In this document: positions 5,031 through 64,000 of the stretch, piece by piece | Position numbering within the stretch: position 1 is the first letter of the stretch | How the letters are laid out: the number at the start of each line of letters is the position of its first letter | Assembly (NCBI RefSeq): GCF_040958095.1 | Contig: NC_091172.1 | Coordinates: 8,151,111 to 8,215,110 of the forward strand | Source: Procambarus clarkii | Taxonomy: Eukaryota > Arthropoda > Malacostraca > Decapoda > Cambaridae | Length of the DNA: 64,000 bases | Direction: 5' to 3' | Notes under the pieces: generated by a model | Told to the model about the DNA's origin: nothing | Database searches by the model: none | What the model saw: only the letters and a program-made list of their open reading frames with translations | Program-made: the position numbers and the translations under genes

Positions 5031-5828
5031 TTTATGATCATTCGTTTACCGAATATTTCAATGCCAAATACATAAGAAACTTCTTGATTTTGCATTGGAA
5101 TAATTCTTACATATTCTAGCCTAACCTAGCTATCAGCCAATATTTATCATAGCTATATATCTAAGTAAACAAATAGTTTGCAGTGGCTTAAGCCACCATA
5201 TCCATTAACTAGTAAGCATTCATAGCATACTAATATTGGTTTGTGTTAAGAAACCACAGTACTTAAGTATATCAGTGTCACAGACACAACTGCATCTTAA
5301 TCATAAAATACCATTATCTACCTCATTGTGGTAACATTACATATATATTTAAGTGTATTATCTAGCATTATCTCTAATCTACTGATTTTCAGAGCTGCTC
5401 ATTACATAATATTCTTTAAAAAAGTGTTATCATCACTGTAAGAGCATCATTACAATCTATCTATAATCAACTATATCATACCCTATTCCAGGTAAAACCA
5501 GTAGACATTCTACTGTATTTTATCTAACAATTATTATGGTAACAGATTTTGTAATAACTTTGCAAAAATAGTGCCATTTACTATTTTTAAAAAATTATTA
5601 CAAGATTTACCAACTTGGTGCATTCGGGTCACAAATCAAATTATTACAGTACTTTTGATAATTGAACACCTGCTACAACCAGATTCCAGGGAGGAAATGA
5701 AGGACGATCTTTGGAATCATTACCTAAGTAGACAGGAAAGCTCATTTATCAAAATACATTAACATCATACATATTTATCAGAAAAAAGAGAAAAATCTTG
5801 GAATCTCCGAAACTCGGAAAAGGTCAAA

Positions 5829-7853: not shown

Positions 7854-7889
7854 CTAGGCAAAGAACAGTCACCACTTAAAATCCCCCAC

Positions 7890-10800
7890 ATGATTGATGA
7901 TGGATTAGAATCTGTACCTCAATTGTGGGAACTTGATGCCATAGGAATAATTCCTGAACAACCAAGTCCTGATGATGTCTGTGCATACAATCAGTACTTA
8001 GAAACTGTACAGTACCATGATGGACAGTACTGGGTAAGGCTACCATGGAAAATCAACCATAAAACCTTACCTACCAATTATCACATGGCTTATAGTCAAT
8101 TTAAATCTCAACTAGCAAAGTTAAGAAAAAGGCCTGAGCATTTAAAACTCTATCATGAGATTATTGCTCAACAATTAAAGAATAAATTCATCGAAGTCGT
8201 GAAACATGACAATACGCAAACAGGCCATTTTTTACCTCACATGGCTGTAATGAGAGAATCAAAAACAACTCCTTTACGGATAGTTTTTAATTGTAGCTCT
8301 AAATCTGGACCCCAAGGAACCAGTCTAAATGATTGTTTGCAAACAGGTCCAAGTCTAACTCAGAAATTGTATGACATACTGTTGAAGTTTAGACTTAACA
8401 AATATGCGTATTCAGCAGATATAAGTAAGGCCTTTCTCAGAGTTGGCTTACAGGAAGAAGATAGAGACTTCACTAAGTTTCTATGGGTAGAGAACCCAGA
8501 AGATGTCAATAGTCCAGTAGTGACTTTCAGATTCTCATCAGTTCTTTTTGGCGCGACAAGCAGTCCATTTCTGTTGCAAGCAACTCTAGATACTCATCTG
8601 AAGAAATCATCAAGTCCCTGTAAGACTGAAATCAGTCAAAATCTATATGTAGATAATTTTCAAGGGACAGTTAACAGTACTACTGAACTGTTACAGTTAT
8701 ATCAAGAGGCCAACAAGGAGCTACAAGGTGCCAACATGCCACTACAATCTTGGGCCTCTAATAATGCAACATTGAATAATCAAATAGCAAGAGATTACCC
8801 TGAATATCACGTACCAGAATCACAAAAGGTGTTAGGTATGGATTGGGATTTAATCTCGGACACAATATCGATCAAATCTGTGCCAGTAAATTACAACATC
8901 ACTACAAAAAGGGATTTGCTTTCACAAGTTAGCAAAGTATTCGACCCACTTGGTCTACTAAATCCTTTGACTATCAAGTGGCGTTTATTGGTGCAACAAG
9001 CATGGAAAGCTAAGGTTGGTTGGGATGATCCACTACCAATCCAGTTACAAAAAGCTTGGATGGAAGTGGCTCAAGAACAAACTTTAGTTGAAAAGATAAT
9101 CTTTCCGAGACACATAGTCGAGGAAAATGAAGAAGTATCACTACATGTATTCGCAGACTCGTCAGCCAAAGCTTTTGGAGCTTGTGCTTACTTAGTGACT
9201 TCTAATCAATCATATCTTATCACCTCTAAGGCCAGAGTCGCTCCATTAAAAAAGAGGACTTTGCCTCAGATGGAACTAACAGCACTGCTAACTGGTACAC
9301 GCTTAGCTGTGCATATCAAACAAGTCTTGTCTACCATGAACATCAAGGATGTCATCATATGGTCTGACAATGAAGCTGTCTTACAATGGGTACGAAACGA
9401 CAACTGTCCAACTCCATATGTAAAAAATCGCGTCTCGGAAATTAAAGAAATTTCCGCAGGCTTTCAATTGTTGCATGTACCAACAAAGGATAATCCAGCT
9501 GATCTCTTATCAAGAGGTATGACATTTAAACAGTTTGCAAAGGCAGATATTTGGTTTCATGGGCCTCGATGGTTAGTGAATGGTAGTTGGCCTGAACAAA
9601 AGCCACACGTCATTACGACACAAACCATAACTACCACCAGGCAGCAAGCTCAAATATCAGTCTTGGATTGTACTCGTTACTCCTCGCTCATCAAATTAAT
9701 CAATGTAACACAGAACGTGTTTCATTATCTCAGGAAAAAAGGTATAAAATACACTTTTCCAGATGCACTTATCTATTGGGTAAGACAAGCCCAGAGAGAA
9801 ACTTATGGGAATAACTATGAAAATCTTCCGCATAAGTTAAAACACAATCTCGGTCTGTGGATAGACCAAGAAAAACACAACATTCTGCGTTGTGGAGGGA
9901 GACTTAAACACGCAGATATCAATCTAGATACCGTGCATCCATGGCTTTTACCAAAAAATCATTGGATCACAAGGTTGATTGTGTTACATACACATCAACA
10001 AATCATCAAACATGGAGGAGTGTTAGACACACTCACACAAATCAGACAGCAGTACTGGATTCCTCAGGGAAGACAGTCAAATCAATCTTGAAGAATTGCA
10101 TGATATGCCGAAGGTACGATGCAAGAACTTGCTCTTATCCAGGGCCACCACCCCTGCCAAAGGAACGAGTGGTCCATCTACAACCTTTCGAAACGACAGG
10201 AGTAGATTATACAGGAGCAATATATCTAACAGGGACTGCAGATAAGCAACCTATCAAGGCATACATCTGTCTGTTCACCTGTGCTACCACCAGGGCAGTA
10301 CATCTAGAGGTAACACCCGATATGACTGCTCAATCATTTATTCAAGCTTTCCGCAGATTCGCAGCACGCCGATCATGCCCTAAGCTGATGATTTCAGATA
10401 ACGGAGCAAACTTGGTAGCTGGAGAAGCATGTCTACGGGAAATCTGTTCCCATCCTGCAGTTACTTCCACACTGGAACAGCGTCATTGCAGATGGAAATT
10501 TATCCCTCCGAGAGCCCCATGGCACGGAGGATTTTATGAACGGTTAATAGGAACTGTAAAAAGATCCTTGAGAAAATCTCTACCCCGTCAGAAAATCAAT
10601 CTTCAAGAACTCCAGACAGTAATCACGGAAATAGAATCAAGGGTGAATAACCGGCCGTTGACTTACTTGTCTGAGGATCCTACTCAACATGAGCCATTAA
10701 GTCCTGCCCACCTAATGTATGGAAGACTTCTGTCTCCAGTACCATCTCTAGTGGATGATGAGATCAGAGATCCCTCATATGTGGGTCAGAGCGAGTTGGT

Positions 10801-11248
10801 TCAGGGGTATAAGCATCTGTCCAGCATAATCCAAAAATGGAATGATGTTTGGACAAAAGAATATCTTACATCTCTACGAGAACATCACTATGGGGCCAAT
10901 GTCCCACATAATATATCTAATCTCCAATCTGGCGATATTGTCTTGGTAGACAGTGATGGCCCTAGGGCTGACTGGCCATTAGGTAAAGTTGTCTCAGTCC
11001 ATCCAGATAGTCAGGGGATTTTGAGAATAGTCAAAATCCTGTCTAAAGGAACAACTTCCCTGAAGACATTGGACAAACTCATCCACATGGAATCAGTGAG
11101 CCAGCTGCAGTTAGATCCTGAGAGACCTCAAGACACTCTAACTCCACAAGACCCACAGACTCCTAACAGACACAATCGTCCACAACGGACAGCAGCACAA
11201 AAGTGCAAGCAAAATTTGCACTTGTATTATCAATCCAATGGAGAGTAA
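7890..11248 (+). other. BEL/Pao reverse transcriptase, RNase H and integrase region (fossil)
   Basis: Polymerase part of the element. A BEL-type reverse transcriptase palm with ADISKAFLRV is followed by a thumb and a tail recalling the Pao-type A17 arrangement. An RNase H-like segment contains VFADSSAKAFGA and WSDNEAVLQWV. An integrase with a zinc-binding front section and a core (GVDYTGAIYL, SDNGANLV, WHGGFYERLIG) comes next, then a C-terminal DUF5641-like domain with LVDSDGPRADWPLGKV. The 3' LTR follows after about 65 bp. The reading is interrupted about once in this part. The order RT, RNase H, integrase matches BEL/Pao and Gypsy; the protein style favours BEL/Pao. Confidence 0.88.

Positions 11249-20376: not shown

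Positions 20377-20462
<86 letters not shown>
20376..20462. repeat. (CA)n(TA)n compound microsatellite
   Basis: About ten CA units pass directly into about 34 TA units and stop exactly at the end of the first palindromic element at 20463. Confidence 0.97.
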
Positions 20463-20465
<3 letters not shown>

Positions 20466-20848
20466 GTACCTAGTAGCCAGAATGCACTTTTTGGCCTATT
20501 ATTCAAGGCCCGATTTGCCTAATAAGCCAAGTTTTCCTGAATTAATACATTTTCTCTATTTTTTTTTCTTATGAATGATAAAGCTACCCATTTCATTATG
20601 TATGAAGTCAATTTTTTTTTATTGGTGTTAAAATTACCGTAGATATACGACCGAAACTAACCAACCCTACCTAACCTAACCTAACCTATCTTTATAGGTT
20701 AGGTTAGGTTAGGTAGCCGAAAAAGTTAGGTTAGGTTAGGTTAGGTAGGTTAGGTAGTCGAAAAACAATTAATTCATGAAAACTTGGCTTATTAGGCAAA
20801 TCTGGCCTTGCATAGTAGGCTGAGAAGTGCGTTCTGGCTACTAGGTAC

Positions 20849-20851
<3 letters not shown>
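20463..20851 (-). mobile_element. 389-bp palindromic MITE-like element, copy A
   Basis: Starts GTCGTACCTAGTAGCCAG and ends with the reverse complement CTACTAGGTACGAC. The terminal inverted repeats extend about 80 bp, through GCCTAATAAGCCAAGTTTTC. The centre holds inverted telomere-like tracts, (CCTAA)n facing (TTAGG)n around CTATCTTTATAG. It codes for nothing. Both ends abut (AT)n, compatible with a TA target as used by Tc1/mariner-type elements. Orientation is opposite to copies B and C. Confidence 0.88.

Positions 20852-20935
<84 letters not shown>
20852..20935. repeat. (AT)n tract between copies A and B
   Basis: Uninterrupted AT dinucleotides, 84 bp, filling the whole interval between two palindromic elements. 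Confidence 0.98.
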
Positions 20936-20938
<3 letters not shown>

Positions 20939-21321
20939 GTACCTAGTAGCCAGAACGCACTTCTCAGCCTACTATGCAAGGCCCGATTTGCCTAATAAGC
21001 CAAGTTTTCACGAATTAATATTTTTTCGACGACCTAACCTACCTAACCTAACCTAACCTAACTTTTTCTGCTACCTAACTTAACCTAACCTATAAAGATA
21101 GGTTAGGTTAGGTTAGGTAGGGTTGGTTAGGTTCGGTCATATATCTACGTTAATTTTAACTCCAATAAAAAAAAAATGACCTCATACATAATGAAATGGG
21201 TAGCTTTATCATTTCATAACAAAAAAATTAGAGAAAATATAATAATTCAGGAAAACTTGGCTTATTAGGCAAATCGGGCCTTGCATAGTAGGCTGAGAAG
21301 TGCGTTCTGGCTACTAGGTAC

Positions 21322-21324
<3 letters not shown>
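20936..21324 (+). mobile_element. 389-bp palindromic MITE-like element, copy B
   Basis: Same terminal sequence and length as copy A but inverted. Begins GTCGTACCTAGTAGCCAG and ends GGCTACTAGGTACGAC. The internal segment TAATGAAATGGGTAGCTTTA is shared with copy C. Central telomere-like inverted tracts are present. Confidence 0.88.

Positions 21325-21417
<93 letters not shown>
21325..21417. repeat. (AT)n tract
   Basis: 93 bp of AT dinucleotides between copy B and the LINE tail that begins at about 21422. Confidence 0.98.
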
Positions 21418-21959: not shown

Positions 21960-23061
21960 ATGTTTCCCATTGTTGTGTTTTTCAAGAGATCCATAACCTT
22001 TAATCACCTTTTTGCATTATTATTTTTGTATCAACCCATGTATATCTAGAAGGTTCAAATTTAATGTGTATAGAAAACCTACCAACGTGGGGTGGTTTGT
22101 TCATTATTATTCGAATCATCATTGTAAAGTTAAACAGGCAGTATTTTCAGGAATGTTTCTTCTAGCTTTGAGGGTATGCAGCCCTGAGTTTTTTGATGAA
22201 GAGATAGCTAAAATATATGAAACTGGGAAGAGTTTACAGTACCCTAAGATGTTTTTGGATTGTTCGTTTGGGAAAGCTAAACGTACGTTTTATAATAATG
22301 TCTCCAAAGCGAAACCAGAAAATAGAAACTCATTGGTGGTATCTTATGCGATGGGATTTGAGAAACTTTCCCCAGTTTTTAAGAACCTTAATATCAATTT
22401 GGTGTTCACTAATAATAGGATAAAGTCTAATTTAATAAGAAACTCCCCTGGTACAACAGGTTGTGTGTATTCGATTCCCTGCAATGATTGTGAGTCTGTG
22501 TACCTTGGACAAACAGGAAAATCCTTACAATTACGTATGTCCCAACATGCTTATAGTATAAGAACTGGCCAAACGTCTAATGCTTTGTATCTACATACAA
22601 GTTTGTGTGAACACACTATTAATTGGGATGGGGCGAAAAGCATTGCCAATTGCAATGGCTTTGTGGAACGGAATTTAATTGAGTCTGCGCTAATTAGTCA
22701 ATGTCCAAATCTTCTCAATGTTAGTACTGGTATGTACAAACTTGACCCAGTTTTAAGTTACAATATTGCACAACAGTTTAAGGAAAAACTCTGAAAGGGA
22801 GGCTTACAATGTCTCATTACAATTTTATATTCATTTATTGTGTGTTCATGAGGCTTTTCTTTAATCTTATTCCTTATTCTCTGACCGCTTAATCCTTTTT
22901 GACCTCTCCTGTTTCTGGTAATCCTTTCCCTAGAGATGGGTTGGTCAGGTTCCTTGATGCTGGCCTGTATCCACTCTCTCTTCCTCTAGTCAGTCTGATG
23001 TTGACAACGGCTTTAACAGGCCGAAACGTTCATCTCTCTTTCACATTTCTTTGTGGTTTTT

Positions 23062-23065
<4 letters not shown>
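21960..23065 (+). mobile_element. Penelope-like element, 5'-truncated copy
   Basis: Open frame 22012-22794 (260 codons). It starts in the polymerase thumb (FKFNVYRKPTNVGWFVHYYS) and ends in a GIY-YIG endonuclease (GCVYSIPCNDCESVYLGQTG, then LRMSQHAYSIRTGQ and FVERNLIESALI). That domain pair is the hallmark of Penelope-like elements. The palm with YVDD is missing, so only the C-terminal part remains. A non-coding tail of about 270 bp contains AACAGGCCGAAACGTTC and stops at an (AT)n tract. The family differs from the copies at 32942 and 38269. Confidence 0.88.

Positions 23066-23157
<92 letters not shown>
23066..23157. repeat. (AT)n tract
   Basis: 92 bp of AT dinucleotides joining the Penelope-like tail to palindromic copy C. 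Confidence 0.98.

Positions 23158-24218
<1,061 letters not shown>

Positions 24219-32875: not shown

Positions 32876-32941
<66 letters not shown>
32876..32941. repeat. (CA)n(TA)n compound microsatellite
   Basis: A few CA units and then about 29 TA units. It ends exactly where the Penelope-like coding sequence begins. Confidence 0.97.
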
Positions 32942-32943
<2 letters not shown>

Positions 32944-34127
32944 TGCCGTTATGTAGATGACATATTCGTAATAGTAAAAGACTCAGATGAACTAATTGAC
33001 CTAAAAAGACACCTAGAGAGAGAGTCAGTACTCCGATTTACACATGAAAATTGTGAAAATAACAGTCTGCCATTCTTGGATGTACTAATAACAAAAACAG
33101 GAACCTCTTTAAGCACCAACGTATATACCAAGCCCACCAACATAGGATTATGCCTGAACGGTAGAAGTGAGTGCCCCCAAAGATACAAAGCCAGTGTTCT
33201 CAATGCTTATATTCGTCGAGCGCTTACCCACTGCTCTGAATGGAGCAACGTGAGTAGAGAGTTTGAAAGAGTAACTCAGGTATTGGTGAACAACGGATAT
33301 AGCAACGCGGAAATAAACGCTGCTATAAGAAGACACTTGGACCGTTGGTATAATTCAGAACCTAGAACAGAAACCACAACACCCCCAATAAAATTATATT
33401 ACAAATCAACCATGCACAGTGAACATATAAAAGAGGAAAGAATAATGAAAGAAATAATCCGTAAAGGAGTAAAAAGCACTACTCCTAACCAAAACATAAA
33501 CCTGATAATATTCTACAAAACCAAGAAGACTTCCGAACTCCTTATCAAAAACAGCCCGAAGCCGACGGAGAACCCTCTACAGCAGTCAAGCGTTGTATAC
33601 ATGTACACTTGCCCCCACGAAGGATGTAACCTTCAATGTAAGTACATAGGTATGACGTCGAACAAGCTGACGAGGCGTTTGACATGCCATCTTCAATCTG
33701 GTGCCCCTAGGAATCACATGAGACAAGCCCATGACATTACTCTAACAAGAGAAATGTTGAACAAGAATACTTGCATAATAGACAAAACCCAAGATTCAAG
33801 AAGATTACAAATTCTTGAGGCAATTCACATAAGAATAGAGCGACCTACCATGAACACCCAAATCACGGAACTATTTACTCTACCCACCATGAGAGTAAGG
33901 ACAAGACAAGAACATATCGATGCCAACACAGAAGACAATGTCCAACATAACAGGCCAATTACACTGGATTAATCTTTGTGTTTAGATAGGAGATGCCTCG
34001 TATGGGCCAATAAGCCTTCTGCAGCCCCTATGTTTATCCCTTATGTATCCCCCCATGTTTTCACCTTCATTGTATTATCACCTGACCTAATGCGGGTATA
34101 AAATCAACTAGTATTGTAAGATCTGTT

Positions 34128-34164
34128 CACTTGAGAATGAACCATGGAGGTTCGAAACGTCGTG
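34128..34164 (+). ncRNA. Hammerhead-ribozyme-like motif in the Penelope-like tail
   Basis: CAC (34128-34130) can pair with GTG (34162-34164) as stem I. TTGAGAAT follows, then GAACC pairs with GGTTC (34139-34143, 34149-34153) as stem II, then GAAACGTC with a minimal stem III and the GTC cleavage triplet. Hammerheads are known in Penelope-like terminal repeats. The core CUGANGA reads TTGAGAA here with one extra T, so activity is uncertain. Confidence 0.5.
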
Positions 34165-34234
34165 CAAATTATACAAATAAGTGTAATACACTCTATAGTA
34201 AATCACTTCTTTTCTTCACCTTAAAAGTACGAAA

Positions 34235-34693
<459 letters not shown>

Positions 34694-37871: not shown

Positions 37872-40144
37872 TATATTTTGGTAGCAGTCTTTCCTGTAGA
37901 CATATATTATTAAATATGACCGAAAAAGTAAGATTAATAATTCTAACACGAATTTTCTCAATCTTTCGTACATTACACTTCACTGTTGGAGGTAAATCAA
38001 AAATCACTTCTCCAAAATTCATTTTTATTTCTAGTCTGACGCGACACGGGCGCGTTTCGTAAAACTTATTACATTTTCAAAGACTTCACAAATACACAAC
38101 TGATTAGAACTTACGTCTCTCTGATATTATATCTACATTTGAGTGAGGTGGGAAGGATGATGTGGCATTAACACAAGACAGAACAGGGGATATTAATAGG
38201 GTATTAAAAGTATCAACACAAGACAGAACAGAAACAATGGGTATTGAATAGAAGTGTTTGTAGAAAGCCTATTGGTCCATATTTCTTGATGCTTCTATAT
38301 TGGAGCGGAGTCTTGAGGTGGGTAGAATATAGTTGTGCAATAATTGGCTGTTGATTGCTGGTGTTGACTTCTTGATGTGTAGTGCCTCGCAAACGTCAAG
38401 CCGCCTGCTATCGCTGTATCTATCGATGATTTCTGTGTTGTTTACTAGGATTTCTCTGGCGATGGTTTGGTTATGGGAAGAGATTATATGTTCCTTAATG
38501 GAGCCCTGTTGCTTATGCATCGTTAAACGCCTAGAAAGAGATGTTGTTGTCTTGCCTATATACTGGGTTTTTTGGAGCTTACAGTCCCCAAGTGGGCATT
38601 TGAAGGCATAGACGACGTTAGTCTCTTTTAAAGCGTTCTGTTTTGTGTCTGGAGAGTTTCTCATGAGTAGGCTGGCCGTTTTTCTGGTTTTATAGTAAAT
38701 CGTCAGTTGTATCCTCTGATTTTTGTCTGTAGGGATAACGTTTCTATTAACAATATCTTTCAGGACCCTTTCCTCCGTTTTATGAGCTGTGGAAAAGAAG
38801 TTCCTGTAAAATAGTCTAATAGGGGGTATAGGTGTTGTGTTAGTTGTCTCTTCAGAGGTTGCATGGCTTTTCACTTTCCTTCTTATGATGTCTTCGATGA
38901 AACCATTGGAGAAGCCGTTATTGACTAGAACCTGCCTTACCCTACAAGAGTTCTTCGTCGACTTGCTTCCATTCTGAGCTGTGGCTGAGAGCACGGTCGA
39001 CGTATGCGTTAACAACACTCCTCTTGTACCTGTCGGGGCAGTCGCTGTTGGCATTTAGGCACATTCCTATGTTTGTTTCCTTCGTGTAGACTGCAGTGTG
39101 GAAACCTCCGCCCTTTTCCATGACTGTTACATCTAGAAAAGGCAGCTTCCCATCCTTTTCCGTCTCGTAAGTGAAACGCAGCACGGAACTCTGCTCAAAT
39201 GCCTCCTTCAGCTCCTGCAGATGTCTGACATCAGGTACCTGTGTAAAAATGTCGTCAACATACCTGCAGTATATGGCCGGTTTCAAGTTCATGTCGACTA
39301 AGACTTTTTGCTCGATGGTACCCATGTAGAAGTTTGCAAACAGGACACCTAGGGGAGACCCCATAGCGACCCCATCTACTTGCTTATACATGTGCCCATC
39401 CGGGCTCAAGAAGGGTGCCTCTTTAGTACAAGCTTGGAGTAGTTTCCTCAGAATACTTTCTGGCATGTCAAGAGGAGTACAGGCTGGATCACGATACACT
39501 CTGTCGGCTATCATTCCGATGGTCTCGTCCACAGGTACGTTGGTAAACAGCGATTCTACGTCCAACGAGGCTCTTATCCCTGTGGCCCGTGTGCCCCGCA
39601 GTAAGTCCACAAATTCCTTTGGAGACTTCAGGCTGAAGGCGCAAGGAACATAAGGAGTCAGCAGGCCGTTGAGTCGCTTTGCCAGTCTGTACGTGGGTGT
39701 GGGTATCTGGCTAATGATTGGCCGAAGTGGGTTTCCAGGCTTGTGCGTCTTGACATTTCCATACGCATATCCAGGTTTATATTCCCCAATGATCTTTGGC
39801 AGGTGGAGTCCGGATTTCTTGGCGTTCACAGTTTTGATCAGTTTGTTGACCTTTGCTTTTAATTCGGCTGTAGTGTCCTTCGTTACCCTTTGGAACTTAG
39901 TTTGGTCAGAGAGTATGATGTTCATTTTCGCCAGATATTCGTCTTTTTTAAGAATGACATATATTGGCGACTTGTCACCTCTCCTGACAACTATCTCCTT
40001 GTTCTCACGAAGGCTTTTAGCTGCCGCTTTAAGCTCGGGGGACAGTATGGTGCTTCTGTAGTTGCCTCGATTCTTTCCTCCTTCTGCAATAAGTTCTGCT
40101 TGTAAGGTATCTTTGGTAGTGACCTTCTTTTGTGTCTCGAGGTC
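37870..40144 (-). mobile_element. Penelope-like element, left head-to-head copy
   Basis: Minus-strand coding sequence enters at the junction 40144. It contains a polymerase with fingers (YGNVKTHKPGNPLRPIISQI), palm (ASLDVESLFTNVPVDETIGM; GVAMGSPLGVLFANFYMG; CRYVDDIFTQV) and thumb, and a C-terminal GIY-YIG domain (VVYAFKCPLGDCKLQKTQYI, then LSRRLTMHKQQG) ending at 38269. The first part of the protein, perhaps 100-150 residues, is missing. The reading has about one break. A 250-bp tail with a hammerhead-like motif follows, then the family's coding start again ([15 protein letters not shown] at 38022) running into (AT)n at 37869. Its C-terminal 1.2 kb is repeated inverted at 40145-41345. Confidence 0.92.
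38033..38085 (-). ncRNA. Hammerhead-ribozyme-like motif
   Basis: Reverse-complement counterpart of the motif at 41164-41216, with identical stems and core. See that entry for the fold. It lies between the stop codon region and the downstream coding restart of the left copy. Confidence 0.55.
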
Positions 40145-41338
40145 GTTTCCACACTGCAGTCTACACGAAGGAAACAAACATAGGAATGTGCCTAAATGCC
40201 AACAGCGACTGCCCCGACAGGTACAAGAGGAGTGTTGTTAACGCATACGTCGACCGTGCTCTCAGCCACAGCTCAGAATGGAAGCAAGTCGACGAAGAAC
40301 TCTGTAGGGCAAGGCAGGTTCTAGTCAATAACGGCTTCTCCAATGGTTTCATCGAAGACATCATAAGAAGGAAAGTGAAAAGCCATGCAACCTCTGAAGA
40401 GACAACTAACACAACACCTATACCCCCTATTAGACTATTTTACAGGAACTTCTTTTCCACAGCTCATAAAACGGAGGAAAGGGTCCTGAAAGATATTGTT
40501 AATAGAAACGTTATCCCTACAGACAAAAATCAGAGGATACAACTGACGATTTACTATAAAACCAGAAAAACGGCCAGCCTACTCATGAGAAACTCTCCAG
40601 ACACAAAACAGAACGCTTTAAAAGAGACTAACGTCGTCTATGCCTTCAAATGCCCACTTGGGGACTGTAAGCTCCAGAAAACCCAGTATATAGGCAAGAC
40701 AACAACATCTCTTTCTAGGCGTTTAACGATGCATAAGCAACAGGGCTCCATTAAGGAACATATAATCTCTTCCCATAACCAAACCATCGCCAGAGAAATC
40801 CTAGTAAACAACACAGAAATCATCGATAGATACAGCGATAGCAAGCGGCTTGACGTTTGCGAGGCACTACACATCAAGAAGTCAACACCAGCAATCAACA
40901 GCCAATTATTGCACAACTATATTCTACCCACCTCAAGACTCCGCTCCAATATAGAAGCATCAAGAAATATGGACCAATAGGCTTTCTACAAACACTTCTA
41001 TTCAATACCCATTGTTTCTGTTCTGTCTTGTGTTGATACTTTTAATACCCTATTAATATCCCCTGTTCTGTCTTGTGTTAATGCCACATCATCCTTCCCA
41101 CCTCACTCAAATGTAGATATAATATCAGAGAGACGTAAGTTCTAATCAGTTGTGTATTTGTGAAGTCTTTGAAAATGTAATAAGTTTTACGAAACGCGCC
41201 CGTGTCGCGTCAGACTAGAAATAAAAATGAATTTTGGAGAAGTGATTTTTGATTTACCTCCAACAGTGAAGTGTAATGTACGAAAGATTGAGAAAATTCG
41301 TGTTAGAATTATTAATCTTACTTTTTCGGTCATATTTA

Positions 41339-41345
<7 letters not shown>
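40145..41345 (+). mobile_element. Penelope-like element, right head-to-head copy
   Basis: Starts abruptly at the junction with FHTAVYTKETNIGMCLNANS (polymerase thumb). It reads on without interruption through the GIY-YIG domain to a stop at 40980 (PTSRLRSNIEASRNMDQ). A tail of about 250 bp carries a hammerhead-like motif (41164-41216). Then ATG at 41228 begins [20 protein letters not shown] and is lost in (AT)n near 41342. It is almost identical to the matching part of the left copy, so the two were made together or one was copied from the other recently. Confidence 0.92.
41164..41216 (+). ncRNA. Hammerhead-ribozyme-like motif, type I layout
   Basis: Stem I: AGTCT (41164-41168) with AGACT (41212-41216). 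Core TTGAAAAT. Stem II: GTAA (41177-41180) with TTAC (41187-41190). Then GAAA, stem III CGCG/CGCG (41195-41198, 41206-41209) with a 7-nt loop, and the cleavage triplet GTC at 41209-41211. Compared with CUGANGA, positions 3 and 8 read U and A, which still can pair, and there is one extra U before stem II. The position in a Penelope-like terminal region agrees with known hammerheads in this group. Confidence 0.6.
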
Positions 41346-41375
<30 letters not shown>

Positions 41376-42771: not shown

Positions 42772-43500
<729 letters not shown>

Positions 43501-51292: not shown

Positions 51293-54200
51293 ACAAAAAG
51301 TCGTAATTTCAAACTCCAAATATGTGAAGTGAGCCAGAATTCGGCTCAAAAATAATGTTTATGAGTCAGATTTGGGATATTTGGGATATTTTGAAAACTG
51401 CACGGGGGTTTGCGCAAAATGTGACCCATTGCCGTTTTCAGTATTGGCATATTTTCGATATAAAAAGTCGTAATTTCAAACTGTAAATATGTGCAGAGAG
51501 CCAGAAATTGGCTCCAAAATATCGCTTAGGAGTCAGATTTGGTATATTTGGGATATTTTGAAAACTGCAGTGGGGTTTGGGCAAAATGCGACCAATCGCT
51601 GTTTTTAGTAATAGGCATATTTTCGATATAAACAATCGTAATATCAAACGGCAAATATGTGCAGAGAGCCAGAATTTGGCTCTATAATATGGCTCAGGAG
51701 TCAGATTTGGGATATTTTAAAAACTGCAGGGGGGGGGGGGTTTGGGCAAAATGTGACACATCGCGGTTTCCAGTAATTGGCATAATTTCGATATAAAAAG
51801 TCGTAATTTCACACTGCAAATATGTGCAGAGAGCGAGAATTTGGCTCCAAAATATGGCTCAGGAGTCAGATTTGGGATATTTTGAAAACTGCAGGGGGGG
51901 GTGGGGGAACTCAGTGAAATACCATTAGTGAAAGGAAATTCACTAAAGTTCCCAGTATGTTCCCAGTTCCCAATATTGTTCTATGAAATCTATCAACCCC
52001 CCCAACTCAATGTGTGGGTTGGGGGGGGGGGGGTGATATGGTGTGGAGTCAGGAGTCAGATTTGGGATATAAGGGATATTTTGAAAACTGCAGGGGGGGA
52101 TTGGACAAAATGTGACCATTCGCCGTTTTCAGTAATTGGCATATTTTCGGTATAAAAAGTCGTAATTTCAAACGGGAAATATGTCCAGAGAGCCAGAATT
52201 TGGCTGCAAAACATGGTTAAAAAGTCACATTTGGGATATTTGGGATATTATGAAAAATGCAGGGGGGGGGGGAATCAGTGAAATACCATTAGTGGATGGT
52301 ATTTAACTAAAGTTTCAAAGTATGTTCCCAACTCCCAATATTGTTCTGTGAAATCTATAAACCCCCCCAAACCCATAGTGTAGTTGGGGATATGGTGTAG
52401 TTATATGATATGGCTGAAAAAGTCTTGCTTAGGCGTCAGATTTGCGATATTTCTGATATTGTGAAAACTACGAGGGAGGATTGGGTCAAATGTGATATAT
52501 CGCCGTTGTCACAAATTGGAATATTTTCGGCATAAAAAATCGTAATTTGAAAAATAAATATGTGCAGAGAGTCAGAATTCGGCTCAAAAATCACGCTCAG
52601 GAGTAAAATTTCCAACAATTCAAATATTTTGAAAACTGCAGGGAGGTTTGGGCAAAATATGATCCATCGCCGTTTTCAGTAATTGGCACATTTTCGGTAT
52701 GAAAAGTCGTAATTTGAAAATGAAAATAGGTGCAGAGGGTCAGAATTCGGCTCAAAAATCACGCTCAGGAGTCAAATTATCGACATTTCAGATATTTTGT
52801 AAACTGCAGGGGGGTTTGGGCAAAATATGACCCACCGCCGCTTTCAGTAATTGGCTTACTTTCGGTATAAAATTCGGAATTTCTAACTGCGAATAGGTGC
52901 AGAGAGCCAGATTTTGGGTCCAAAATATGGCTCAGGTATCGAATTTGGGATGTTTGGGATATTTTGAAAACTGCAGGGGGGTTTTGGCAAAATGTGACCC
53001 ACCGCCGCTTTCAGTAATTGGCATATTTTTAGTATAAAAAGTCAGAATTTCAAACTGCGAATAGGTGCAGAGAGCCAAAATTTGGGTCCAAAATATAGCT
53101 CAGGTATCGAATTTGGGGTGTTTGGGATATTATGAAAACTGCAGGGGGGTTTGGGCTAAATGTGACCCACCGCCGCTATCAGTAAAGGGCATATTTTTGG
53201 TATTAAAAGTCGGAATTTCAAACTGCGAATAGGTGCAGAGAGCCAAAATTTGAATCCAAAATATAACTCAGGTATCGAATTTGGGATGTTTGGGATATTT
53301 TGAAAACTGCAGGGGGGGTTTGGGCTAAATGTGACCCACCGCCGCTTTCAGTAATTGGCATATTTTTGGTATAAAAAGTCGGATATTCAAACTGCGAATA
53401 GGTGCAGAGAGCCAAAATTTGAATCCAAAATATGGCTCAGGTATCGAATTTGGGATGTTTCAGATGTTTTGAAAACTGCAAGGGGGTTTGGGCAAAATGT
53501 GACCCACTGCTGCTTAAAGTAATTGGCATATTTTTTGTATAAAAAGTAGGAATTTCAAACTGCGAATAAGTGCAGAGAGCCAAAATTTGGGTCCAAAATA
53601 TGGCTCAGGTATCGAATTTGGGATGTTTTGGATATTTTGAAAACTGCAGGGGGGTTTGGGCAAAATGTGACCCACCGCCACTTTTGTAATTGGCATATTT
53701 TTAGTTTAAAAATTCGGAATTTTAAACTGCGAATAAGTGCAGAGAGCCAAAATTTGGGTCCAAAATATGGTTCAGGTATCGAATTTGGGATGTTTGGGAT
53801 ATTTTGAAAACTGTAGGGGGGTTTGGGCAAAATGTGACCCACCGCTGCTTTCAGTAATTGGCATATTTTTTTGTATAAAAAGTCGGAATTTCAAACTGCG
53901 AATAGGTGCAGAGAGCCAGAATTTGGGTCCAAAATATGGCTCAGGTATCGAATTTGGGATGTTTGGGATATTTTGAAAACTGTAGGGGGGTTTGGGCAAA
54001 ATGTGACCCACCGCCGCTTTCAGTAATTGGCTTATTTTTGGTATAAAAAGTCGGAATTTCAAACTGCGAATTGGTGCAGAGAGCCAGAATTTGGGTCCAA
54101 AATATGGCTCAGGTATCGAATTTGGGATGTTTGGGATATTTTGAAAACTGAAGGGGGGTTTGGGCAAAATGTGACCCACCGCTGCTTTCAGTAATTGGCA

Positions 54201-57200
54201 TATTTTTTGTATAAAAAGTCGGAATTTCAAACTACGAATAGGTGCAGAGAGCCAAAATTTGGGTCCCAAATATGGATCAGGTATCGAATTTGGGATGTTT
54301 GGGATATTTTGAAAACTGCAGGGGGTTTGGGCAAAATGTGACCCACCGCTGCTTTCAGTAACTGGCATATTTTTGGTATAAAAAGTCGGAATTTCAAACT
54401 GCGAATAGGTGCAGAGAGCCAGAATTTGGGTCCAAAATATGGCTCAGGTATCAAGTTTGGGATGTTTGGGATATTTCGAAAACTGCAGGGGGAGGGGGGG
54501 GGGGGTTGGGCAAAATGTGACCCACTACCGTTTTTAGTAATTGGCATATTTTTGGTGTAAAAAGTAGGAATTTCAATCTGCGAAAAGGTGCAGAGAGCCA
54601 GAATTTGAGTCCAAAATATGGATCAGGTATCGAATTTGGAATGTTTGGGATATTTTGAAAACTGTAGGGGGGTTTGGGCAAAATGTGACCCTCCGCCGCT
54701 TTCAGTAATTGGCATATTTTTGGTATAAAAAGTCGGAATTTCAAACTGCGAATAAGTGCAGAGAGCCAGAATTTGGGTCCAAAATATGGCTCAGGTATCG
54801 AATTTTATATTTTTTAGATGTTTTGAAAACTGCAGGGGGGTTTGGGCAAAATGTGACCACAGTTTCTTTCAGTAATTGGCATATTTTCGGTATAAAAAGT
54901 CAGAATTTCAAACTTCGAATAGGTGCAGAGAGCCAGATTTTAGGTCCAAAGTATGGCTCAGGTATCGATTTTGGGATGTTTGGGATATTTTGAAAACTGC
55001 AGGGGGGTTTGAGCAAAATGTGACCCACCGCCGCTTTCAGTAATTGGCATATTTTTGGTATAAAATCTCGGAATTTCAAACTGCGAATAGGTGCAGAGAG
55101 CCAGAATTTGGGTCCAAAATATGGCACAGGTATCGAATCTGGGATGTTTGTGATATTTTGAAAATGCAGGGGGGTTTGGGCAAAATGTGACCCACTGGCG
55201 CTTTCAATAATTGGCATATTTTTGGTATCAAAATTCGGAATTTCAAACTGCGAATAGGTGCAGAGAGCCAGAATTTGGGTCCAAAATATGGCTCAGGTAT
55301 CGAATTTGGGATGTTTGGGATACTTTGAAAACTGTTGGGGGTTTGGGCAAAATGTGACCCACCACCTCATTCAGTAATTGGCACACTTTTGGTAAAAAAT
55401 TCGGAATTTCAAACTACGAATAGGTACAGAGAGCCAGATTTTGGATCCAAATTATGACTCAGGTATCGAATTTGGGATGTTTGGGATATTTTGAAATCTG
55501 CAGGGGGGTTTGGGCAAAATGTGACCCACCGGAGCTTTCAGTAATTGGCATATTTTTGGTATAAAAAGTCGGAATTTCAAACTGCGAATAGGTGCATATA
55601 GCCAGAATTTGGGTACAAATTATAGCTCAGGTATCGAATTTGGGATGTTTGAGATGTTTTGAAAACTACAGGGGGATTTGGGCAAAATGTCACCCACCGC
55701 CGCATTCAGTAATTGGCATACTTTTGGTATAAAATGTCGGAATTTCAAACTGCGAATAGGTGCAGAGAGCCAAATTTTGGGTCCAAATTATGGCTCAGGT
55801 ATCGAATTTGGGATGTTTGGGATATTTTGAAATCTGCAGGGGGGTTTGGGCAAAATGTGACCCACCGCCGCTTTCAGTAATTGGCATATTTTTTGTATAA
55901 AAAGTCGGAATTTCAAACTACGAATAGGTGCAGAGAGCCAGAATTTGGGTCCAAAATATGGCTCAGGCATCGAATTTGGGATGTTTAGGATATTTTGAAA
56001 ACTGCAGGGGTGTTTGGGCAAAATGTGACCCACCGCCGCTTACAGTAATTGACATATTTTTGGTATAAAAAGTCGGAATTTCAAACTGCGAATAGGTGCA
56101 GAGAGCCAGAATTTGCGACCAAAATATGGCTCAGGTATCGAATTTGGTATGTTTAGGATATTTTGAAAACTGCAGGGGGGTTTGGGCAAAATGTGACCCA
56201 CCGCTGCTTTCATTAATTGGCATATTTTTGGTATAAAAAGACGGAATTTCAAAATGCGAATAGGTGCAGAGAGCCAGAATTTGGGTCAAAAATATGGCTC
56301 AAGTATCGAATTTGGGATGTTTGGGATGTTTTGAAAACTGCAGGGGGGTTTGGGCAAAATGTGACCCACCGCCGCTTTTAGTAATTGGCATATTTTTGGA
56401 ATAAAAAGTCGGAATTTCAAACTGCGAATAGGTGCAGAGAGCCTGAATTTGGGTCCAAAATATGGATCAGGTATCGAATTTGGGATGTTTGGGATGTTTT
56501 GAAAACTTTAGGGGGGTTTGGGCAAAATGTGACCCACCGCTGCTTTCAGTAACTGGCATTTTTTCGGTGTAAAAATTCGGAATTTTAAACTGCGAATAGC
56601 TACAGAGAGCCAGATTTTGGGTCAAAAATATGGCTCAGGTATGAAATTTGGGATGTTTGGGATATTTTGAAAACTGCAGGGGGGTTTGAGCAAAATGTGA
56701 CCCACCGCCGCTTTCAGTAATTGGCATATTTGTGGTATAAAATCTCGGAATTTCAAGCTGCAAATGGTGCAGAGAGCCAGAATTTGGGTCCAAAATATGG
56801 CACAGGTATCGAATCTGGGATGTTTGTGATATTTTGAAAATGCAGGGGGGGTTTGGGCAAAATGTGACCCACCGGCGCTTTCAGTAATTGGCATATTTTT
56901 GGTATCAAATTCGGAATTTCAAACTGCGATTAGGTGCAGAGAGCCAGAATTTGGGTCCAAAATATGGCTCAGGTATCGAATTTGGGATGTTTGGGATACT
57001 TTGAAAACTGTTGGGGGTTTGGGCAAAATGTGACCCACCGCCTCATTCAGTAATTGGCATACTTTTGGTATAAAAAGTCGGAATTTCAAACTACGAATAG
57101 GTGCTGAGAGCCAGATTTTGGGTCCAAAATATGGCTCTGGTATCGAATTTGGGATGTTTGGGATATTTTGAAAACTGCAGGGGGGTTTGAGCAAAATGTG

Positions 57201-60200
57201 ACCCACCGCCGCTTTCAGTAATTGGCATATTTTTTGTATAAAAAGTCGGAATTTCAAACTGCGAATAGGTGCTGAGAGCCAGATTTTGGGTCCAAAATAT
57301 GGATCAGGTATCGAATTTGGGATGTTTGGGATTTTTTGAAAACTGCAGGGGGGGTTTGGGCAGAATGTGACCCACCGCCGCTTTCAGTAATTGGCATATA
57401 TTTGGTATAAAAAGTCGGAATTTCAAACTGTGAATAGGTGCTGAGAGCCAGATTTTGGGTCCAAAATATGGATCAGGTATCGAATTTGGGATGTTTGGGA
57501 TATTTTGAAAACTGCAGGATAGTTTGAGCAAATTGTGACCCACCGCCGCTTTCAGTAATTGGCATATTTTTGGTGTAAAAAGTAGGAATTTCAATCAGCG
57601 TATAGGTTCAGAGAGTCAGAATTTGAGTACAAAATATGGCTCAGTAATGGAATTTGGGATGTTTGGGATGTTTTGAAAACTGCAGGGGGGGGGGGTCAAA
57701 ATGTGACCCACCGTTGCTTTCATTAATTGGCATATTTTCGGTATAAAAAGACGGAATTTCAAACTGCGAATAGGAGTAGAGAGCCAGATGTTGGGTTCAA
57801 AATATGGCTCAGGTATCGAATTTGGGATGTTTGGGATACTTTGAAAACTGCAGGGTGGTTTGGGCACAATGTGACCCACCGCCGCTTTCAGTAATTGGCA
57901 TTATTTTGGTACAAAAAGTAGGAATTTCAAACTGCGAATAGGTGCAGAGAGCCAGAATTTGGGTCCAAAATATGGCTCAGGTATCGAATTTGGGATGTTT
58001 GTGATATTTTGAAAACTGCAGGGGAGTTTTGGCAAAATGTGACCCACCGCCGCTTTCAGTAATTGGCATATTTTTGGTATTAAAATTCGGAATTTCAAAC
58101 TGCGAATAGGTGCAGAGAACCAGAGTTTGGGTCCAAAATATGGATCAGGTATCGACTTTGGGATTTTTGGGATATTTTGAAAACTGTAGGTGGGTTTGGG
58201 CAAAATGTGACCCACCGACGCTCTCAGTAATTGGCCTTTAATTTTTTGTATAAAAACTCGGAATTTCAAACTGCGAATAGGTGCAGAGAGCCAGAATTTG
58301 GGTCCAAAATATGGCTCAGGTATCGAATTAAGGATGTTTGAGATGTTTTGAAAACTGCAGGGGGGGTTTGGGGAAAATGTGACCCACCGCCGCTTTCAGT
58401 AATTGGCATATTTTTGGTATAAAAAGTCGGAATTTCAAACTGCGAATAGGTGCTGAAAGCTAGATTTTTGGTCCAAAATATGGCTCAGGTATCGAATTTG
58501 GGATGTTTCGGATATTTTGAAAACTGCAGGGGGGTTTGGGCAAAATGTGACCCACCGCCGCTTTCAGTAATTGGCATATTTTGGGTATAAAAAGTCGGAA
58601 TTTCAAACTGCGAATAGGTGCACAGAGCCAAAATTTGGGTCCAAAATATGCCTCAGGTATCGAATTTGGTATGTTTGGGATTTTTTGAAAACTGCAGGGG
58701 GGTTTTGGCAAAATGTGACCCACCGCCGCTTTCAGTAATTGGCATATTTTTAGTATAAAAAGTCGGAATTTCAAACTGCAAATAGGTGCAAAGAGCCAGA
58801 ATTTGGGTCCAAAATATAGCTCAGGGATCGAATTTGGGATGTTTGGGATATTTTGAAAACTGCAGGGGGGTTTGGGCAAAATGTAACCCACCGCCGCTTT
58901 CAGTAATTGGCATATTTTGGGTATAAAAAGTCGGAATTTCACACTGCGAATATGTGCTGAGAGCCAGATTTTGGGTCCAAAATATGGCTCAGGTATCGAA
59001 TTTGGGATGTTTGTGATATTTTTTAAACTGCAGGGGGGTTTGGGCAAAATGTGACCCTCCGCCGCTTTCAGTAATTGCCATATTTTGGGTATAAAAAGTC
59101 GGAATTTCAAACTCCGAATAGGTGCAGAGAGCCAGAATTTGGGTCCAAAATATGGATCAGGTATCGAATTTGAGATGCTTGGGATATTTTGAAAACTGCA
59201 GGGGGGTTTGGGAAAAATGTAACCCACCGCCGCTTTCAGTAATTGGCATATTTTTGGTATAAAAAGTCGGAAATTCAAACTGCGAATAGGTGCAGAGAGC
59301 CAGAATTGGGGTCCAAAATATGGATCAGGTATCGAATTTGGGATGTTTGGGATATTTTTTAAACTGCAGGGGTGTTTGGGCAAAATGTGACCCACCACCG
59401 CTTTCAGTAATTGGCATATTTTGGGTATAAAAAGTCGGAATTTCAAACTGCGAATAGGTGCAGAGAGCCAGAATTTGGGTCCAAAATATGGATCAGGTAT
59501 CGAATTTGGGATGCTTGGGATATTTTGAAAACTGAAGGGGGGGTTTGGGCAAAATGTGACCCACCGCCGCTTTTAGTAATTGGCATATTTTTGGTATAAA
59601 AAGTCGGAATTTCAAACTGCGAATATGTGCAGAGAGCCAGAATTTTTGGTCCAAAATATAACTCAAGTATCGAATTTGGGATGTTTGGAATGTTTTGAAA
59701 ACTGCAGGGGGGTTTGGGAAAAATGTGACCCACCGTCGCTCTCAGTAATGTGCATATTTTTGGTATAAAAATTCGGAATTTCAAACTGCGAAAAGGTGCA
59801 GAGAGGCAAAATTTGGGTCCAAAATATGGATCAGGTATCGAATTTGGGATGTTTGGGATATTTTGAAAATTGCAGGAGGGTTTGGGCAAAATGTGACCCA
59901 CCGCTGCTTTCAGTAATTGACATATTTTTTATATATAAATTCGGAATTTTAAACAGGGAATAGGTGCAGAGAGCCAGAATTGAGGTCCAAAATATGGATC
60001 AGGTATCGAATTTAGAATGTTTTGGATATTTTAAAAACTGTAGGGGGGTTTGGGCAAAATGTGACCCACCGCCGCTTTCAGTAATTGCCATATTATGGGT
60101 ATAAAAAGTCGGAATTTCAAACTGCAAATAGGTGCAGAGAGCCAGAATTTGGGTCCTAAATATGGATCAGGTATCGAGTTTGGGATGCTTGGGATATTTT

Positions 60201-63200
60201 GAAAACTGCAGGGGGGTTTGGGCAAAATGTGACCCACCGCCGCTTTCAGTAATTGGCATATTTTTAGTATAAAAAGTCGGAATTTCAAACTGCGAATAGG
60301 TGCAGAGAGCCAGAATTTGGGTCCAAAATATAACTCAAGTATCGAATTTGGGATGTTTGGGAAGTTTTGAAAACTGCAGGGGGGTTTGGGCAAAATGTGA
60401 CCCACCGGCGCTCTCAGTAATATGCATATTTTTTGTATAAAAATTCGGAATTTTAAACTGCGAATAGGTGCAGAGAGCCAAAATTTGGGTCCAAAATATG
60501 GCTCAGGTATCGAATTTGGGATGTTTGGGATATTTTGAAAACTGCAGAGGGGTTTGGGCAAAATGTGACCCACCGCCGCTTTCAGTAATTGGCATATTTT
60601 TGGTATAAAAAGCCGGAACTTCAAACTGCGAATTGGTGCAGAGAGCCAGAATTTGGGTCCAAAATATGGCTCAGGTATCGAATTTGGGATGTTTGGGATG
60701 TTTTGAAAACTGCTGGAGGGGGGGGGGGGCAAAATGTGACCCACCGCTGCTATCAGTAATTGGCATATTTTTAGTACAAAATGTAGGAATTTCAAACTGC
60801 GAATAGGTGCAGAGAGCCAGAATTTGGGTTCAAAATATGGCTCAGGTATCAAATTTGGGATGTTTGGGATATTTTGAAATCTGCAGGGGGGTTTGGGCAC
60901 AATGTGACCCACCTCCGCTTTCAGTAATTGGCATATTTTTAGTATAAAATGTAGGAATTTCAAACTGCGAATAGGTGCAGAGAGCCAGAATTTGGGTCCA
61001 AAGTATGGCTCAGGGATCGAATTTGGGATGTTTGGGATATTTTGAAAACTACAGGGGGGTTTTGGGCAAAATGTGACCCACCGCCACTATCAGTAATTGG
61101 CATATTTTTTGTATAAAAAGTATGAATTTCGCACTGCGAATAGGTGCAGAGAGCAAGAATTTGGGTCTAAAATATGGCTCAGGTATCGAATTTGGAATGT
61201 TTGGGATATTTTGAAAACTGCAGGGGGGTTTTGGGCAAAATGTGACCCACCGCCACTATCAGTAATTGGCATATTTTGGGTATAAAAAGTCGGAATTTCA
61301 AACTGCGAATAGGTGCAGAGAGCCAGAATTTGGGTCCAAAATATAACTCAAGTATCGAATTTGGGATGTTTGGGAAGTTTCGAAAACTGCAGGGGGGTTT
61401 GGGCAAAATGTGACCCACCGGCGCTCTCAGTAATATGCATTTTTTTTTGTATAAAAATTCGGAATTTTAAACTGCGAATAGGTGCAGAGAGCCAAAATTT
61501 GGGTCCAAAATATGGCTCAGGTATCGAATTTGGGATATTTTGAAAACTGTAGAGGGGTTTGGGCAAAATGTGACCCACCACCGCTTTCAGTAATTGGCAT
61601 ATTTTTGGTATAAAAAGTCGGAATTTCAAACTGCAAATAGGTGCAGAGAGCCAGAATTTGGGTCCAAAATATGGCTCAGGTTTCGAATTTGGGATGTTTG
61701 GGATATTTTGAAAACTGCAGGGGAGTTTGGGCAAAATGTGACCCACTGCCGCTTTCAGTAATTGTCATATTTTTGGTAAAAAAAGTCGGAATTTCAATCT
61801 GCGAATAGGTTCAGAGAGTCAGAATTTGAGTCCAAAATATGGCTCAGGTATCGAATTTGGGATGTTTGAGATGTTTCGAAAACTGCAGGAGGGTTTGGGC
61901 AAAATGTGACCCAATGTCGCTTACTGTAATTGGTATATTTTTAGTATAAAAATTCGGAATTTCAAACTGCGAATAGGTGCAGAGAGCCAAAATTTGGGTC
62001 CAAAATATGCCTTAGGAAACGAATTTGGGATGTTTGGGATATTTTGAAAACTGCAGGGGGGTTTGGGCAAAATGTGACCCACCGCCGCTTTCAGTAATTG
62101 GCATATTTTTGGTATAAAAATTCGGAATTTCAAACTGCGAATAGGTGCAGAGAGCCAGAATTTGGGTGCAAAATATAGCTCAGGTATCTAATTTGGTATG
62201 TTTGAGATGTTTTGAAAACTGCAGGGGGGTTTGGGCAAAATGTGACCTACTGCCGCTTACAGTAATTGGCATATTTTTGCTATAAAAAGCCGTAATTTGA
62301 AAATGAAAATAGGTACAGAGAGTCAGAATTCGGCTCAAGAATCACGCTCAGGAGTCAAATTTCCGACATTTCGGATATTTTGAAAACTACAGGGGGGGTT
62401 TGGGCAAAATGTGACCCATCGACGTTTTCTGTAATTGGCATATTTGCGGTATAAAAGTCGTAATTTGAAAATGAAAGTAGGTGCAGAGCGTCAGAATTCG
62501 GCTCAAGAATCACGCTCAATATTCAAATTTCCGACATTTCGGATATTTTGAAAACTACAGGGGGGTTTGGGCAAAATGTGACCCATCGACGTTTTCTGTA
62601 ATTGGCATATTTTCGGTATAAAAAGTCGTAATTTGAAAATGAAAGTAGGTGCAGAGAATCAGAATTCGGGTCGAAAATCACGATCAGGTGTCAAATTTCC
62701 GACATTTCAGATATTTTGAAAACTGCAGGGGGGGTTTGGGCTAAATGTGACCCCATCGTCGTTTTCAGTAATTGGCATATTTTCGGTATAAAATTCGTAA
62801 TTTGAAAATGAAAATAGGTGTAGAGAGTCAGAATTCGGCTCAAAAATCAGGCTCACGAGTCAAATTTCCGACATTTCAGACATTTTGAAAGCTGCAGGGA
62901 GGTTTGGGCAAAATATGACTAATCGCCGTTTTCAGTAATTAGCTTATTTTCGGTATAAAAGATCGTAATTTGAAAATTAAAATAAGTGAAAAGAGTCAGC
63001 ATTCGGCTCAAAACTCACGCACAAAAGTAAAATTTCCGACATTTGAGATATTTTGAAAACTGCAGGGGAGTTTGGGCAAAATATGACCCATCGTCGTTTT
63101 TAGTAATTGGCATATTTTCGGGTCAAAAATTCGTAATTTGAAAATGAAATCATGTGCAGAGAGTCAGAATTTGGCTCGGAAATCACGCTCAGGAGTCAAA

Positions 63201-64000
63201 TTTCAGACATTTCAGATATTTTGAAAACTGCAGATGTGTTTGGGAAAAATATGACCTAACGCCGTTTTCAGTAATTGGCATATTTTCGGTATAATAGATC
63301 GTAATTTGAAAATGAAAATAGGTGCAAAGAGTCAGAATTCGGCACAAAAATCACGCTCAGGAGTCAAATTTCCGACATTTCAGACATTTTGAAAGCTGCA
63401 GGGGGGTTTGGGCAAAATATGACTAATCGCCGTTTTCAGTAATTAGCTTATTTTCGGGATAAAAATTCGTAATTTGAAAATGAAAATACGTGCAGAGAGT
63501 CAGAATTCGTCTTAAAAACCACGCCCAGGAGTCAAATTTCCGATATTTTAGATATTTTGAAAACTGCAGGGGGGTTTGGGCAAAATATGACCCATCGCTA
63601 TTTTCAATAATTGGCATATTTTCGATATAAAAAGTTGTAATTTGAAAATGAAAATAGGTGCAGAGAGTCAGAATTCGGCTCAAAAATCAAGCTCAGGCGT
63701 CAAATTTCCGACATTTCAAATATTTTGAAAACTGCAGGGGGGTTTGGGCAAAATATGACCCATCGCCGTTTTCAGTAATTAGCATGTATTCGGTAAAAAA
63801 TATTGTAATTTGAAAATGAAAATAGGTGCAAAGAGTCAGAATTCGGGTCAAAAATCACGCTCAGGAGTAAAATTTCCGACATTTGAGATTTTTTTGAAAA
63901 CTGCAGGGGGTTTTGGGAAAATATGACACATCGCTGTTTTCAGTAATTAGCATATTTTCGGTATAAAAAGTCGTAATTTGAAAATGAAAATAGGTGAAAA
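51293..64000. repeat. 168-bp satellite DNA array
   Basis: About 75 tandem monomers of 168 bp. Landmarks are AATTTCAAACTGCGAATAGG, GCAGAGAGCCAGAATTTGGG, TATCGAATTTGGGATGTTTG, GAAAACTGCAGGGGGGTTTG, GCAAAATGTGACCCACCGCC and TTTCAGTAATTGGCATATTT. The core (about 52850-62270) is homogeneous. Both flanks (51293-52850 and 62280-64000) belong to a different subfamily with AATTTGAAAATGAAAATAGG, CACGCTCAGGAGTCAAATTT and CCATCGCCGTTTTCAG. The array runs past the window end. Since 168 is 3 x 56, minus-strand frames stay open over several monomers. Confidence 0.97.

Follow-up and report, generated by a model that had tools for sequence, protein, structure and literature searches.

Penelope-like elements in a 64 kb stretch of the Procambarus clarkii genome, called the window below, carry in their tails a hammerhead motif with U3 and A8 in place of C3 and G8 and with one additional pyrimidine between A9 and stem II. 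Judged from its sequence, it appears to be a real and inherited variant of the hammerhead core. On balance, the best explanation is probably a hammerhead of the Penelope tail (pseudo-LTR), inherited in this U3-A8 form together with the pyrimidine before stem II, with slow self-cutting predicted at element junctions. The sequence of the motif, the pairing and covariation of its stems, its recurrence and its position were observed directly in the DNA.

The window contains three families of Penelope-like elements, A, B and C, and the motif is located in the element tail or pLTR of each (Table 1). At the protein level, the C-terminal part of A shares 46% identity with that of B, and the C-terminal part of C shares 29%. 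The Pfam scores of RVT_1 in B (29.3 bits, cut-off 29.6) and GIY-YIG in C (21.4 bits, cut-off 22.6) fall just short, and the C-terminal parts of A and B match no Pfam family at 1e-3; both align with that of C. Family B forms an inverted duplication, and the alignment of its arms has 1200 identical positions, 3 mismatches and 1 gap. The reverse transcriptase frame of B is broken. In A and B, the C-terminal part is followed by the motif-bearing 3' tail, then by the beginning of another ORF copy (ATG at 34235 in A, at 41227 in B) and finally by a TA or AT repeat. The tail of A extends 145 bases into the next ORF copy, and in C a TA repeat follows soon after the motif, without an ORF start. No relatives of the Penelope protein were confirmed in viral contigs or prokaryote genomes.

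Table 1. Coordinates of the hammerhead-like motifs and of their host elements, numbered along the window.
Feature	Position	Strand	Remarks
Family A, 5'-truncated element, C-terminal part	32905..33972	+	46% identical to B
Family A, motif	34128..34164	+	U3 34131, A8 34136, extra U 34138, C17 34161; stem III consists of A-U and C-G, loopless
Family A, next ORF copy start 3' of motif, then TA repeat	34235..34379	+	
Family B, inverted duplication	37897..41352	.	Arms about 1.2 kb, unique middle about 39106-40144
Family B, motif, second copy in other arm	38033..38085	-	Letters identical
Family B, C-terminal part, minus arm	38269..39054	-	
Family B, reverse transcriptase part	38942..40237	-	RVT_1, E 8.3e-07, just under Pfam cut-off
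Family B, C-terminal part, plus arm	40123..40980	+	
Family B, motif	41164..41216	+	Type I layout; U3 41169, U4 41170, G5 A6 41171-41172, N7 41173, A8 41174, A9 41175, extra U 41176, GAAA 41191-41194, C17 41211
Family B, next ORF copy start 3' of motif, then AT repeat (Penelope 'tail')	41227..41345	+	End approximate
Family C, C-terminal part	21997..22794	+	GIY-YIG, E 3.2e-04, just under Pfam cut-off; 29% identical to B
Family C, motif	22997..23034	+	U3 23001, A8 23006, extra C 23008, U17 23030; absent from earlier note

The element ends adjoin TA or AT repeats at 23065, 32905-32940, 34380 and 41345, which would fit an AT-preferring endonuclease. Short segments of the tails (33983-34024 in A, 41005-41072 in B) match repeats in three of the sampled contigs (L036, L040, L041) at about 90-95%, as if the 3' UTR of A and B shared a segment with another repeat family. 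A repeated inverted-repeat element with a CCTAA-rich part lies at 20377-21416 and 23066-23637, adjoining the tail of family C.

The earlier note had described 41164-41216 as a type I hammerhead layout with three stems and GAAA, with U and A at positions 3 and 8 and one extra U before stem II, and base-by-base reading bears this out. Stem I (AGUCU/AGACU) has 5 bp, stem II (GUAA/UUAC, loop UAAGUU) 4 bp, and stem III (A-CGCG/CGCG-U, loop CCCGUGU) 5 bp including A15.1-U16.1, with a single U between A9 and stem II; the linear string is AGUCU-UUGAAAA-U-GUAA...UUAC-GAAA-CGCG...CGCGU-C-AGACU. The three-stem layout is open at stem I, as in type I hammerheads. The inverted copy at 38033-38085 has the same letters, as stated in that note, but it is not independent because the two arms are 99.7% identical. 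Family A reads CAC-UUGAGAA-U-GAACC...GGUUC-GAAA-CGU-C-GUG (stem I CAC/GUG, stem II GAACC/GGUUC), in agreement with the previous description of the same U/A pair and extra U among different stems. The motif of C, in the tail of the third element, reads GAUG-UUGACAA-C-GGCUU...AGGCC-GAAA-CGU-U-CAUC (stem I GAUG/CAUC, stem II GGCUU/AGGCC). U4 G5 A6, A9, GAAA, A15.1-U16.1 and H17 are all present in A, B and C. Stem III is reduced in A and C, as in the further family D described below, and B is exceptional with its 5 bp. The predicted minimum-energy fold of B is other than the hammerhead (-10.4 versus -8.6 kcal/mol), and that of a longer, 51-base piece of A is also a different one.

The bases after UGA are AAAU, GAAU and CAAC in the three window families and can be divided in either way. 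The extra base could thus stand at position 7 (7a), the base taken here as extra being a changed A9 (U or C), and A9U has been found in functional hammerheads; the U3-A8 combination is the same under both divisions. This reading requires one more core change, and an insertion after A6 gave low activity in the available text of Perreault 2011 (PMC3088659), and we give it the lowest probability of all those considered, a very slight one.

The descriptor used for scanning left N3, N7 and N8 free and allowed 0 or 1 extra base. It was composed after B and A were known, so that C is the only blind find. Over the 64 kb, the strict form (5/4/5 bp) matches the two B copies only, as does the 4/4/3 form, and the form with minimal stem III matches A and C only (C with N3 at 23001); the strict and minimal forms together give four places, all in tails of the three Penelope-like elements. 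Among 150 first-order Markov sequences of 64 kb, neither the strict nor the minimal form had a match, and the 4/4/3 form had 5 places in total. A loose 3/3/2 form also matches a satellite at 59189 and 63221, which was taken as chance, the Markov controls having covered the other forms. The region 51300-64000 is taken up by a large tandem array; its period is about 168 bases, and the largest family listed has 69 copies. Pattern scans of viral contigs gave 9 loci of the U-A form and 12 of the C-G form; these were regarded as chance, since none of the 21, when examined for stems immediately at the core, combines a stem I of at least 3 bp with a stem II of at least 4 bp (the nearest, L021, had 4 and 3).

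Across the 64 kb window, all Rfam families stayed below their gathering scores, and none of the Rfam hammerhead families gave a hit at E 10 or better at B, A or C. Models made from the families themselves recovered the family that was left out. With a model from A and B (stem III of B shortened), C ranks next after the training rows (E 0.026, followed by 1.5); with a model from A and C, both B copies do so (E 0.012, followed by 0.66). Surveys can therefore overlook such copies, as the Rfam models did with the three window families.

A further model, R1, was built from A, B and C and applied to twenty 10-kb stretches from 20 contigs of the same 4.03 Gb genome (200 kb); being trained on UUGANAA rows, it is biased towards them. 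It gave 7 matches at E up to 5, including 5 at E up to 1e-3, and these 5 belong to one further short repeat, family D, found twice on L025, twice on L029 and once on L032. Its sequence is approximately GAC-UUGAUAA-U-GGUCC...GGACC-GAAA-CGU-C-GUC, and the copies vary. No Penelope protein was found beside D in its 10 kb pieces. Four of the five matches were counted; the omitted one, L025 7660-7699 (+), has lost UGA and kept U3 and A8. Two weaker matches were also left out of the count, L036 898-934 (-) at E 0.09, which is without the stretch from U3 to G5, and L026 6636-6674 at E 0.98. The D copies are close head-to-head inverted pairs at L025:7622-7699 and L029:6735-6833, each with the motif or its remains. 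The free descriptor found one motif-like place in the 200 kb sample (L029 minus); a hit at L026 7152, with C3 and A8, was taken as chance.

A less biased control covered the window and the sample together (264 kb). It considered every [CU]UGAN[GA]A that has GAAAC no more than 45 bases downstream and demanded a stem II of at least 3 bp ending at GAAAC. Among the UUGANAA sites, 5 of 13 have such a stem after one extra base (B twice, A, C and D on L029). With 0-2 extra bases allowed, none of the 8 CUGANGA (C3-G8) sites and none of the 3 UUGANGA (U3-G8) sites has it. Two other sites were dismissed as chance: a U3-A8 site at 43131 on the minus strand, whose 3-bp stem II is preceded by two extra bases, and a C3-A8 site on L026 that passed without an extra base.

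Seven rows from four families (A, B, C and four D rows) were aligned with ends set so that each starts at stem I; the D rows weigh less than four because they are relatives of one another. For A, B and C alone, standard pairs occupy 33 of 36 cells and both bases change in 8 of 12 pairs, a result reached by 0 of 500 shuffles and approached by slid structures only up to 50.0% and 3 pairs. Across all seven rows, standard pairs occupy 75 of 84 cells (89.3%) and both bases change in 9 of 12 pairs; again 0 of 500 shuffles reached this, and slid structures attained no more than 53.2% and 5 pairs. These pair counts rest on rows picked to fit, MAFFT alignments with misplaced cores or ends being excluded. 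Every row has U3 and A8 where a hammerhead would have C3 and G8, and every row has one pyrimidine (U in 5, C in 2) after A9, where a hammerhead would pass directly into stem II; all seven rows have G at position 12. A 3-8 pair remains possible throughout. The comparison of positions 3 and 8 suggested in the earlier note finds, in these seven rows, U/A throughout and no variation, and as the two positions are invariant they have no covariation of their own within this genome, so that the case for their pairing rests on the literature.

Since four families keep the core while their stems change in compensation, the data support an inherited and constrained variant, which appears to fit U3/A8 and the extra pyrimidine better than decay. 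Old repeats commonly undergo C to T and G to A mutation, and both core changes are of this kind. Decay of ordinary C3-G8 hammerheads into dead copies would also agree with the state of the copies, A being 5'-truncated, the reverse transcriptase frame of B broken and several D copies part-decayed (both on L025, L029 plus and L036). However, it would have to produce the same two changes and an extra base at the same site in four families, with the other core bases kept and the stem changes paired. In addition, D rows with other core losses (L025 minus is without G5, L029 plus without A13) retain U3 and A8, the exception being L036, in which the stretch with U3 is missing. Decay is thus already disfavoured, and we assign it only a small probability. 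The view of the earlier note that this is a real variant class rather than decay gains from the four families, their differing and compensating stems and the recovery of left-out families. It has to give way in two respects, the inverted copy adding no independent case and the U3-A8 pair having been known as natural variation since 2011, so that this pair alone makes no new class.

Several natural hammerheads with U3-A8 in place of C3-G8 are given as examples in the accessible part of Perreault 2011 (PMC3088659), which also states, citing Przybilski and Hammann 2007, that covaried 3-8 pairs are active in vitro. According to the same text, two added bases near C3 impaired cutting and an insertion in GAAA was thought harmless. 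U3-A8 is therefore common to those hammerheads and the window families, whereas the portion consulted names no extra base at the present site and here four families each carry an extra pyrimidine. The U3-A8 pair is thus known in kind; what was less to be expected is that it is fixed across families along with the extra pyrimidine. In the full-text collection searched, a search for hammerhead with G8C and C3G led only to the paper on the PAc element; such searches miss Perreault 2011, which uses other wording. Searching for hammerhead with C3-G8, G8A, C3U or U3-A8 by name returned no hammerhead paper from that collection, a result that is bound to wording and proves little.

Minimal type I hammerheads of Penelope-like elements are reportedly the subject of Cervera and De la Pena 2014 and Lunse et al. 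2017. The tails of these elements are a known home of hammerheads, with minimal type I forms in the pseudo-LTR that are thought to act as dimers (PMC7761336 and PMC7229834, in the sections available). The position in the pseudo-LTR is shared with the window families, and A, C and D likewise have little or no stem III; the U3/A8 core and the real 5-bp stem III of B are different, in a comparison made by description only. In PAc of Anolis, as far as the extract of that paper goes (PMC11167929), a hammerhead stands at the pLTR-ORF junction, and the start of reverse transcription is 111-118 bp inside the ORF. PAc and the window elements agree in the location ahead of the ORF start and in a tail that ends in AT-rich DNA, but the core of PAc is C3-G8, and the main ATG of A and B stands further downstream of the motif. 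In the same extract, C3G or G8C alone abolished cutting of PAc and the C3G/G8C double mutant partly restored it. Together with the natural U3-A8 hammerheads, this partial restoration leads us to expect that U3-A8 is tolerated.

The role that we infer for the motif involves cleavage, the 3-8 pair itself, dimers and help from protein. A transcript of tandem copies would fold at each copy junction and would undergo slow self-cutting after position 17 (41211 in B). The cut would fall just upstream of the ORF start in A and B, and read-through RNA would be trimmed. The 5-bp stem III of B would allow a single copy to fold. In A, C and D a palindromic ACGU replaces stem III, so that two copies would need to pair, and these dimers may be helped by the element's protein.

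A point against such cutting is that the extra pyrimidine pairs with G12 in the lowest-energy folds of trimmed A and C, since this pairing would favour a non-catalytic junction. It is conceivable, and in our view rather unlikely, that a hammerhead-derived fold has lost its catalysis or nearly so and is kept as a structural landmark, e.g., for binding of the reverse transcriptase/endonuclease, the pyrimidine-G12 pair extending stem II to give a plain three-way junction. With a pyrimidine and G12 in 7/7 rows, a C-G or U-G pair is always possible. Cutting of PAc was seen only with the element's protein, and its insertion in vitro had no need of hammerhead cutting (PMC11167929, same extract). A landmark of this type would not obviously need G5, A6, A9, GAAA, A15.1-U16.1 and H17, yet all three window families keep them. 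These are the bases that serve the hammerhead catalytic core.

The hammerhead core is very strictly conserved. We put forward, tentatively and with more doubt than confidence, that a distinct and active U3-A8 core with an inserted pyrimidine able to touch G12 is standard for the Penelope elements of this animal lineage and for the further short repeat. If this is true, part of a highly conserved catalytic RNA core would have been rebuilt and then kept over deep divergence of the elements. Kept in several element families, the swapped 3-8 pair and the extra base beside A9 provide a natural probe of how much change the active site can accept.

The extra base also bears on the start of translation. 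In family A an AUG is made up of A9, the extra U and G10.1, and counting from its A, C17 is base 25. This AUG opens a 33-codon frame (34137-34238), the stop of which overlaps the main ATG at 34235. The same three bases form AUG in B, followed by a stop, and in C they are ACG, so that there is no start there. The ORF of PAc starts at stem II, with the cut 26 bp downstream (PMC11167929, same extract), so that the start AUG of that element, too, could be formed by A9, an extra U and G10.1. Penelope hammerheads may therefore have had, from early on, an extra U that creates a start AUG.

Elsewhere in the window, long open frames of 696, 745 and 446 aa lie at 5763-11248. They resemble what we take to be gag-pol of an LTR retrotransposon of the BEL/Pao kind.
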